Shown: positions 718-6,511 of the stretch, piece by piece
How positions within the stretch are numbered: the first letter of the stretch is position 1
How the letters are laid out: every line of letters begins with the position of its first letter
Position numbers and translations under genes: made by a program
NCBI GenBank assembly: GCA_024276995.1
Contig: JAJRWB010000026.1
Span: forward strand, 1 to 33,749
Source of the DNA: Candidatus Eiseniibacteriota bacterium
GTDB taxonomy: Bacteria > Orphanbacterota > Orphanbacteria > Orphanbacterales > Orphanbacteraceae
Length of the DNA: 33,749 bases
Direction of reading: 5' to 3'
The notes under the pieces: generated by a model
Seen by the model: only the letters and a program-made list of their open reading frames with translations
What the model was told of the DNA's origin: nothing
The model's database searches: none

Positions 718-788
718 TGAGATGTTCTCGTTACCCAGTAGTGGGCAACCGCTTTTCTGAGCCGTATTTCCATATCTTCTGTATTCAT
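648..788 (-). pseudogene. truncated gene of a second integron cassette (PaeR7I/XhoI-like start)
   Basis: An ATG at 788-786 follows an AAGG at a suitable distance. It starts a frame whose first 28 residues (MNTEDMEIRLRKAVAHYW, then VTRTSQAARR) have the composition and pattern of a real protein start. The frame then runs out of phase through the lipoprotein fragment to a TGA at 648. The pattern AVxHYWxTRxxQ resembles my memory of the N-termini of PaeR7I/XhoI-type type II restriction enzymes (PF04555). The match is short, so the family call is tentative. The ATG lies about 60 bases downstream of the attC cut site at 848/847, as expected for the first gene of the next cassette. Its own attC is missing. 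The break near 716-722 fuses it to the decayed lipoprotein gene. Confidence 0.45.
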
Positions 789-841
789 ATTGGAACCTTA
801 TCAAAAACGAAGAAGCAGTTCTACCGCAGTATGGTTCTTAT

Positions 842-940
842 GGCTAACGCTTCACATCACCGGCAGCAGAAAGTGGGGTGGCTGGAGCGTAGCGAAAGCC
901 GCGCCACTTTTTGCTGTCCGAGTGCATGTGATTGTTAGAG
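842..940 (-). other. integron attC recombination site
   Basis: On the minus strand this 99-bp site begins with an R'' box CTCTAAC (940-934) and ends with an R' box GTTAGCC (848-842). The two arms pair over most of their length. TAACAATCACATGCAC and GGACAGCA on one side match TAACGCTTCACATCAC and GGCAGCA on the other, with a few unpaired bases of the kind that give attC hairpins their strand choice. The centre holds a second imperfect inverted repeat (AAAGTGGCGCGGC against CCACCCCACTTT). The TAA stop of the nuclease gene lies in the R'' box, a normal arrangement for cassette genes. By family knowledge the cut falls between the G and first T of R', i.e. between 848 and 847. Confidence 0.9.
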
Positions 941-2087
941 ATTTTTCTTGCAATCATTTCTCAGTTTCCAAAAACTCTCTTCCTCTGTCACTAATCTAAT
1001 AAGATCGTTTGCATTTTTGTAGAATACCTTAGCTTGCTCATCTACTGTTGATGATCCGACAAAAACATCTAACATTGGCTTTCTGATATGGATCGGATGC
1101 CATTTGTTCTTGCTCTTTATCTTGGTGTCTGCTAAATGATCATAAAATTGGAATCCATTCTGTAGGCTAGCAACCTTTTTCGAAAGCTTATTAACGAGTT
1201 CTATATAGTGTTTGTTTGATGGATACTGCCCGTGCAAATCATTATCAAAGTCAATGATTAGACAAAAATCGGGGCCTTTTATGGGGTTTATCGGCTTAGT
1301 GCAATGGTCATTGCCATCCAACAAAATGCCAACAAATATACCTGGCCGCCAGGAAGTTAATAGATGCAGACCCATTCGACCCCATGCTTCGCCATATGCT
1401 AACCTGCTCTTATTTTCGACGAATAATTTAAAATCGCTTTTTATATTTACTGACCAATTCTCATTCTCTATACGCTTTATTAAATTACCTATATTTTTCT
1501 TTATATCGACTGAGGCGTAATAATAAAGAATTGACTCATGGGATATTGGCGCTGGCGGACCCATGCCTTCGCTATTAATCAACCTCAAAAACTCTTGAAT
1601 TATAAACGAAGCATTAGTGTTTTTCTCTAGCCAGATGGAAATTAGTTCACAAACATCACTCCAGCACCATGCTAAGTCTGGGTTTTGACTGTGCTGATAG
1701 CTAGAGGCTGTGATTAGAACCACTTTGCTTTCAATAAAGTTTCTTGCAGCGTAATCCCTGTAATTTTGCAATTGATTCTTGTGAAGGTGGCTCCAAGCTT
1801 TATGCTCAAATACAATTGCACGGTTATTTGAAAGGCAAACCATATCAGGAAAAACGCCATCGAAATTATATTGCGTTAACCATTCGCAATCTTTTCTATC
1901 TATATCTTGCAATTGCATATTGGGGTTATCTGTGACTTTGTTTAGAAAAAACCCTGCAAAGTCCGAGTGGTTATTTAGAATCCATGCGAACGCTTCCGTT
2001 ATGAAATTCTCTAACGAATCTTTACCTTCTCGCGGTCGATACTTACTTAATGACTCAAGCAATCCTGCATCCATGTTTCTTCTCTAA
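848..2087 (-). mobile_element. complete integron gene cassette
   Basis: The cassette can be delimited from the cut-site rule G/TTRRRY. Upstream of the gene the minus strand reads G/TTAGAG with the G at 2088, so the cassette starts at 2087. Downstream it ends with the G of the attC R' box at 848, giving 1240 bp. The first hexamer TTAGAG, joined to that terminal G in a circular cassette, is the exact reverse complement of the cassette's own R'' box CTCTAAC. This is the expected signature of an intact mobile cassette. The start codon is 13 bases inside the edge, so the cassette carries no promoter of its own. It is visibly AT-rich against very GC-rich neighbours. No intI gene or recognisable attI lies in the window. 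Confidence 0.85.
935..2074 (-). CDS. PD-(D/E)XK-superfamily nuclease, cassette cargo
   Basis: This 379-aa soluble protein is the only gene of the integron cassette. Residues 70-105 carry a PD-(D/E)XK-like active site. Asp77 lies in FPDMV, followed by Glu90 and Lys92 in the strand IVFEHK, and Gln103/Tyr105 on the next helix (NQLQNYRDY). Glu27 in an N-terminal helix (ENFITEAFAW) fits the upstream acidic residue of this fold. The layout resembles the PDDEXK_4 group (PF14281). The remainder (about 150-379) has no motif I recognise and may bind DNA or a partner. The ATG at 2074 is preceded by GAGAAG. The gene is much richer in A and T than its neighbours, so it was acquired. A defence role is inference from the nuclease fold and the cassette context; substrate and metal use cannot be read from sequence. 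Confidence 0.7.
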   Translation of the reverse strand: MDAGLLESLSKYRPREGKDSLENFITEAFAWILNNHSDFAGFFLNKVTDNPNMQLQDIDRKDCEWLTQYNFDGVFPDMVCLSNNRAIVFEHKAWSHLHKNQLQNYRDYAARNFIESKVVLITASSYQHSQNPDLAWCWSDVCELISIWLEKNTNASFIIQEFLRLINSEGMGPPAPISHESILYYYASVDIKKNIGNLIKRIENENWSVNIKSDFKLFVENKSRLAYGEAWGRMGLHLLTSWRPGIFVGILLDGNDHCTKPINPIKGPDFCLIIDFDNDLHGQYPSNKHYIELVNKLSKKVASLQNGFQFYDHLADTKIKSKNKWHPIHIRKPMLDVFVGSSTVDEQAKVFYKNANDLIRLVTEEESFWKLRNDCKKNL

Positions 2088-2105
2088 CTACTAGTAGACA
2101 GTTCC

Positions 2106-2289
2106 GCCTAATTCCGCAAACCCTGCAAGCCACGCCGCCTAATCCCGGCGGCCTTCGTCGCCATCCCCGTCCAAGCTCAATCCAGCATAGCACTTTCCAG
2201 AAAGTTCGCCAGTGAAACTTCAGGTATTAGGCTGCGAAGCTTTGGCGCCTAATCCCCCCATAGGCAGGTCAGCCTAATCCCGGGCGGCC
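2106..2289. repeat. cluster of TTAGGC-type short repeats between cassette and thiL
   Basis: Minus-strand copies of (G)G(A/G)ATTAGGC lie at about 2106-2115, 2137-2146, 2247-2256 and 2272-2281, with one copy in the opposite orientation at 2226-2232. The 2226-2232 and 2247-2253 copies form a perfect 7-bp inverted repeat around a 14-nt loop. Two copies extend into a longer shared block (GCCTAATCCCGG, then GCGGCC). The stretch 2089-2363 holds no convincing gene. The hexamer TTAGGC fits the cassette-edge consensus TTRRRY, but the preceding base is A rather than G, so these are not standard attC cores. Confidence 0.6.
2185..2205 (-). promoter_or_regulatory. possible promoter/operator feeding the cassette
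   Basis: A perfect 6+2+6 inverted repeat, ACTTTCTGGAAAGT on the minus strand (2205-2192), is followed by a -10-like TATGCT (2190-2185). The -35 region is poor. The nuclease gene has no room for its own promoter inside the cassette, so a promoter in this flank is expected. The assignment is weak. Confidence 0.2.
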
Positions 2290-5420: not shown

Positions 5421-6511
5421 GTCGTTTTTTCACCGGCACTTTCGCCCGCTTCCGCGTGGAAGAGGTGCACGGGGCCGTGAAGGGGAAGGAGGATGCGGAC
5501 TTCGTTTTCGCCGGTCACCATGTTCCCGCCCAGGTCTCCCCAGATCGCGCCGGCGTCGCGGATCCGTTCGTCGAGTGCGAGCGTCTCCGCAGTGCGTCCG
5601 TTCGGCGCCGCACCGACGCCGATCCACGCGTACTCGCCGCGCCGCGCGGTGCGGATGTGGATCGCCTGTCCGCCCGCCACCGTTTCGGTTAAGTAGTCGA
5701 GAATGTGGTAGAACGCCTGGAACATCGCCGTCGGGCGGGTGAGGACGAGCGCCACGTCGCCGAAGTGCCTCTCGAACCAGGCGCTTCTGCCCCGCTCATC
5801 GGGAAGCTTCTCGATCGCCGTTTCGATCCGGCTGTGGATGTCGACGGGTGACCAAACCTCGTCATCCGAACGGGCCGTGTTGCCGTCGGAGAGCCACCGT
5901 CTCAGGTCCTCCACGAGGGCGGTCGTTTCCTCCTGGACCGCATCGGAATCCTCGAGCAGGAAGGGGAGCGCCACCACCTTCTCGAACCGCTTGATCTCGT
6001 CGCGCGCCTTCTCCCTCTCCGGCGGGTTGAGAATGGGATCCTCGAGTTTCCGGTAGAGGTTGAGAAGCGCCACCAGGTCCTTCCGGTACCCGCCGAGAAC
6101 CTCCATATTCTCGACGAGCCTTCCGAGGAGATCGGTAGCCGACGCGCTGGCGCGAAGGAGCGGCTGTTTCGTCCTCGCCGGGCGCTCCGGATCTTCATCT
6201 TCCTGTTCGAGCTTCTCGTTGCGTGCCTCCCTCATCCGGTCTTCCCGCGGCGTGCCGGTGGCGGCGGAAGAGAGATAGCGTTCCACCTCGCGGCGGAACT
6301 CGAGGTTCACCTGCGAGTCTCTGTGGAGGAACCCGTGGCGGCTGTACGAATAAATCAACACTCCCGCCGCGCACGCGAGGCCGACGAGCGCGGCGAGCCA
6401 GACATGGGACACCGATACCCTTTCACCGAGGGAGAGGATCACGATCGACGCTCCCCCGAGAAGAACGGCCACCGTGCGCAACGCCGTGTTTTTCCAGCCA
6501 TGAGGACTCAT
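5417..6511 (-). CDS. two-helix membrane protein with degenerate kinase-like C-terminus
   Basis: The 364-aa product starts with two membrane helices (about 13-28 and 37-54). A charged helical linker rich in Glu/Arg follows, then an all-helical segment (about 115-215) shaped like a histidine-kinase dimerisation region. The C-terminal part (about 215-350) contains VDIHSRIETAIEKL and FYHILDYLTETV, placed where a HATPase domain has its N-box, followed by strand-like IHIRTARRGEYAWIGVG. The N-box Asn, the phospho-accepting His and the DxGxG and GxG loops are not visible, so it is probably not an active kinase. The ATG at 6511 has GGAG 5 bases upstream. It may be a pseudokinase or adaptor; I cannot name a family, and the kinase resemblance is pattern-based. 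Confidence 0.6.
   Translation of the reverse strand: MSPHGWKNTALRTVAVLLGGASIVILSLGERVSVSHVWLAALVGLACAAGVLIYSYSRHGFLHRDSQVNLEFRREVERYLSSAATGTPREDRMREARNEKLEQEDEDPERPARTKQPLLRASASATDLLGRLVENMEVLGGYRKDLVALLNLYRKLEDPILNPPEREKARDEIKRFEKVVALPFLLEDSDAVQEETTALVEDLRRWLSDGNTARSDDEVWSPVDIHSRIETAIEKLPDERGRSAWFERHFGDVALVLTRPTAMFQAFYHILDYLTETVAGGQAIHIRTARRGEYAWIGVGAAPNGRTAETLALDERIRDAGAIWGDLGGNMVTGENEVRILLPLHGPVHLFHAEAGESAGEKTT

Follow-up and report, generated by a model that had tools for sequence, protein, structure and literature searches.

In a standard integron, a single attI site adjoins the integrase gene intI, and good expression is confined to the array's first cassettes. The components of a sedentary chromosomal integron (intI, attI, and attC cassettes) all occur in the lineage described here, and three genomes (G004, G005, and G006) show them in one direction, intI–attI–cassettes; the difference is that an attI and its cassette are also found apart from intI, and that relatives have several attI per genome. 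An attI downstream of intI is also reported for archaeal integrons (PMC9668308). CALINs are defined by at least two attC sites within 4 kb and no intI (PMC9668308, PMC9024848), and examples at conserved loci are known in Xanthomonas (PMC12444791). The locus analysed here shares with CALINs an attC cassette without a neighbouring intI, but it has one complete attC together with an attI-like site, which we did not find reported for the Xanthomonas CALINs. In the delta-attI-type cassettes of class 1 and class 2 integrons, too, incomplete copies of attI occur apart from the main site; there, however, a short piece of attI takes the place of attC within a single array (PMC12901181), whereas here the modules stand upstream of cassettes at separate loci.

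The window is a whole contig (C7, positions 1–33,749; 33,749 nucleotides) of G000, a 3.76-Mb draft genome in 81 contigs that is 96% complete. It belongs to Orphanbacterota, a proposed candidate phylum whose describing paper mentions no integrons (PMC9727166), and in which we document integrons here. Seven genomes of the phylum, representing five genera and one family, were searched, with G000 treated piecewise; all genomes compared are draft metagenome assemblies.

A minus-strand cassette with one nuclease gene and an attC site

We confirmed that positions 848–2087 form an integron cassette on the minus strand, with one nuclease gene followed by an attC site. Its limits are set by the positions of two G^TT crossover points, G2088^T2087 in an attI-like core and G848^T847 in the R' core, and the segment from 2087 to 848 has 38% GC compared with ~63% in the surrounding DNA. 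The attC itself (842–940, minus strand) is a 99-nt hairpin, numbered here on the plus strand, that in cassette orientation ends at GTTAGCC; its R'' (CTCTAAC, 940–934) and R' (GTTAGCC, 848–842) cores each carry one mismatch to the consensus RYYYAAC/GTTRRRY. The fold has a z-score of −7.2, with none of 200 shuffles equally good, and the bottom strand of the cassette folds at −31.1 kcal/mol versus −23.6 kcal/mol for the top strand; folding the bottom strand had been suggested in an earlier note made from the letters alone. In an arm-to-arm alignment with 19 plasmid attCs, the three extrahelical bases (T[G]CAC[T]CGG[A]C) agree with those of the OXA-21 and GES sites, and the layout of the arms is the same as in the 19 aligned sites. 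The site unites the imperfect hairpin, extrahelical bases, and bottom-strand folding bias that mark an attC.

The covariance search proposed in that note gave a divided result with the two models that we built: the outcome named there as refuting, no significant match, applied to the narrower model and not to the broader one. The first (R1), a narrow class-1 model from 17 plasmid cassette sites, missed 842–940; it scored held-out plasmid attCs at only 15–18 bits and was set aside as too narrow. The second (R2), built from 13 plasmid and eight Orphanbacterota-lineage sites with the window site left out, matched 842–940 at 20.8 bits (E = 0.026 over 325 kb), near the 22 bits reached by two held-out plasmid attCs in the same run. 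Unfiltered runs of both models did not recover the 99-nt window site, in the case of R2 probably because the match is longer than the length band of the model, and a whole-genome scan with R2, in which 150 of thousands of candidates were scored, did not list it. A crude arm-pairing score as good as that of 842–940 arose in 2 of 500 local shuffles and in 4 of 60 shuffles of the whole window; 189 kb (strand-bases) of related DNA contained none. Arm pairing is therefore suggestive but not decisive in itself. The joint evidence decides the call, and on that evidence we regard the attC as established: to the fold, alignment, and covariance match are added a stop codon within R'', preferential folding of the bottom strand, the shift in GC, and a core at the opposite end of the gene.

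The one open reading frame of the cassette (935–2074, minus strand, 379 aa) begins with an ATG 13 nt past the G^TTAG core and ends with a TAA inside R'', and a search for sigma70 promoters upstream of it returned zero matches. A single promoterless frame ending at R'' is the structure of a gene cassette, and the description of this one as AT-rich, single-gene, and promoterless, with the gene's stop inside R'', has held up. Pfam, PADLOC, and protein similarity assign the product to PD-(D/E)XK-type nucleases: it matches PF14281 (E = 4.3e-4, slightly below the family cut-off) and PDC-S26 of PADLOC (E = 2e-6), and is 32–33% identical to proteins of Shewanella and Pseudoalteromonas. Since the Shewanella relative, an annotated PD-(D/E)XK nuclease, stands on a plasmid between type I restriction genes, the cassette gene is plausibly a defence gene.

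Sequence and translation place the start of a second cassette at 722–847 (minus strand), following the attC, with an open reading frame starting at ~788; it is truncated and fused at ~722 to a GC-rich lipoprotein-like gene. Its N-terminus matched no family, and a resemblance of its first 27 aa to the N-terminus of a restriction endonuclease gained no tool support, so we make no claim of it. The locus had been thought to be a lone or CALIN-type cassette. Its lack of a local intI bears this out in part, but the truncated neighbour means that the cassette is not alone, and one complete attC does not make a CALIN. Near the contig end, four ~22-bp spaced direct repeats (TTCAGATTGAGCGAAATCAGTG) occupy 88–187, perhaps as the end of an insertion sequence; an IS21-like reading was rejected, as the best plasmid match was to unannotated DNA. 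An Rfam gathering scan of the window gave zero matches.

An attI-like site at the 5' edge of the cassette

The earlier note had also held that no attI was present, and here our results differ. The 5' edge of the cassette carries a putative attI, a core of the form GGCGGAACTGTCTACTAGTAG^TTAG at 2084–2108 (minus strand); G005 and G006 have this core downstream of their intI. A profile built from ten attI sites of these two genomes, with the window excluded, matches 2084–2148 with E = 2e-4 over the whole of G000. The window therefore has one mark of a complete integron, an attI with a G^TT core at the first cassette, its identity as attI being based on similarity to intI-linked sites; the other mark, intI adjoining attI at one locus, is absent from the window. 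The core is preceded by a module at 2105–2283 (minus strand) with GGATTAGGC repeats and a palindrome. This module resembles those of G005 and G006 only over its last 65 bp, and no promoter match was obtained in it. Part of it (2139–2283) has a 74% copy at G000:C67:201–344, which sits upstream of pckA and from which the attI end is missing.

The recurrence of the core also bears on whether the cassette was integrated in the ordinary way into a non-specific genomic attG site. Such insertion, likewise away from intI, has been published and accounts for scattered cassettes elsewhere (Nat Microbiol 2024, as cited in PMC12444791), yet the target in the window is a recurring attI-like module whose core is common to the intI-linked attI, rather than a short, non-conserved, degenerate site. 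We regard this explanation as very improbable.

At most one integrase gene per genome, and none in the window

No intI match was found on the contig, in agreement with what had been claimed for the window, and the search of related genomes that had been suggested did reveal both intI and further attC sites. G000 has one strong intI (303 bits, covering 234/315 positions), located at the end of contig C32 and cut by the contig end; the bin has no contig continuing downstream of it. This contig and C6 (L007 and L008, respectively) terminate in an identical 141-nt stretch of intI, which in C6 is joined to a reading frame of IS3 type. Such matching ends indicate a branch in the assembly, and because the IS3-fused fragment shares these last 141 bases, the intI of this genome may be broken in some cells.

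Across the phylum sample, intI was found in four of the seven genomes, with one per genome. In G004 it is followed by ATAGAATAGTAG^TTAG and then by an array with four attCs, in G006 by an equivalent core, a cassette open reading frame, and a weak attC match, and in G005 by GGTGGAACAATCGAATAGTAG^TTAG at the contig end. The G004 gene is apparently frameshifted near its 3' end (L029, ~17380), with the profile match stopping at 262/315, and another contig of this genome (C24, L125) holds about ten attC matches in one array and no intI match. G003, which is listed as 95% complete, has attC sites (L035, L123) but no intI match.

Dispersed attI modules in related genomes

A combination of attI pattern and profile identified ten strong attI sites in G005 and G006 combined; of these, only two adjoin intI. 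The dispersed modules, up to ~190 bp long and of two subtypes, end at the crossover core when aligned, and they share sequence with the intI-linked attI (79–86% among the G006 type A copies on C261, C78, and C334), while certain other pairs of modules are similar over only part of their length. Several of the intI-free modules have a single attC downstream. In G006:C78, a sigma70-like promoter (TTGAAT-17-TATGAT) directly precedes the core, and other type A copies show related spacing. The possibility that the window hairpin was merely an ordinary dispersed repeat, raised at the outset, is not borne out, as the recurring cores sit at cassette boundaries.

A related idea, that the attI-like modules represent a dispersed promoter repeat of unrelated origin, with cassettes beside it by chance, could draw on the upstream halves, which differ by subtype (A, B, and window type), and on the coreless window-type copy before pckA. 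It would not account for modules that end at the cassette crossover point, nor for the presence of the same module between intI and the first cassette in both G005 and G006, and we give it hardly any credence.

Flanks of six G006 units were searched in G005, and several map to orthologous loci. At one of these (G006:C312 and G005:C114), alignment extends through the left flank and the module as far as the core, and the right flanks are homologous (92.6% over 754 bp) from a point exactly at G^TT onwards; between them, G006 has ~4 kb of cassette DNA, with an attC 3' arm at its end, that is absent from G005, which has a nearly empty site with a degenerate core (GACGAGCC in place of GACTAGTAG). 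This is the one clean empty/occupied pair in all, and none falls at the window locus. At a second locus (G006:C334 and G005:C18), the left flanks are orthologous (~90%) and the cassettes differ; the cassette start of G005:C18 recurs at the intI-linked attI of G005.

These comparisons also bear on a degenerative origin, in which a complete integron in the window lost intI and most of its cassettes by deletion and no action in trans occurs now. Consistent with such a history, the second cassette is cut short and joined to a different gene at ~722, and C6 of G000 carries the IS3-truncated intI fragment. On the other hand, zero intI remnant was found between the attI-like site and thiL, the dispersed sites of G005 and G006 keep intact cores (one with a promoter and a cassette), and cassette content at orthologous loci differs between these two species. 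We therefore consider decay of a local integron unlikely.

A proposed model of cassette loading in trans

Our preferred interpretation is that the window probably holds one of several integron landing sites of this lineage, each with an attI and without an integrase, loaded in trans by a single IntI. A circular cassette would have been joined to the window site at G2088^T2087 by attI × attC recombination, catalysed in trans by the single IntI of the genome, encoded elsewhere. The second cassette would once have stood downstream of the attC, the remaining array having been lost in the rearrangement at ~722. In more general terms, we lean slightly towards a one-integrase, many-docking-sites integron in Orphanbacterota, in which attI modules, dispersed, vertically inherited, and in some cases equipped with a promoter, are loaded and unloaded with single cassettes by IntI in trans, each gene occupying first position at a locus of its own rather than queuing in one array. 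Any attI module could then be a target for cassette circles, and one with a promoter before its core would allow a captured gene to be transcribed where it landed. The action of IntI in trans, the way in which the modules spread, and the activity of the window's own attI are what we infer from sequence comparison.

If this interpretation is right, several cassettes could hold first position simultaneously at dispersed attI modules, and the modules would allow IntI action in trans to be tested directly. They would also offer a reason why cassettes without an integrase are found repeatedly at fixed positions in the chromosome, as in the Xanthomonas CALINs. Searches of the open-access literature gave no report of one intI serving multiple attI modules at different loci, an absence within those searches and not proof of novelty. 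Most tools would miss such modules, as IntegronFinder confines attI detection to class 1 and no longer reports single-attC loci by default (PMC9024848).

Other features of the modules and their cassettes

The whole attI–cassette unit on G006:C78 (L054) lies between ~90-bp direct repeats (354–442 and 5829–5921), which correspond to the 3' end of a gene and are single-copy in G005:C111. Within it, the cassette gene after the dispersed attI (L054:1306–2190) encodes a CAP12/Pycsar-type TIR effector domain (PF10137) and is likely a defence protein. Finally, a conserved element of ~230 bp (L061:6609–6836 on G005:C127) has copies in G005, G006, and G003, and also occurs at the end of L178 (G000:C15). 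It was considered as a long attC and rejected, given that most copies show no complementary 3' arm. The start of the element coincides exactly with the AAC of RYYYAAC-like cores that close the last cassettes on their 3' side, and an attC 3' arm follows it in G005:C14 and in the second copy in G006:C312; it is possibly an attC-targeting insertion element.
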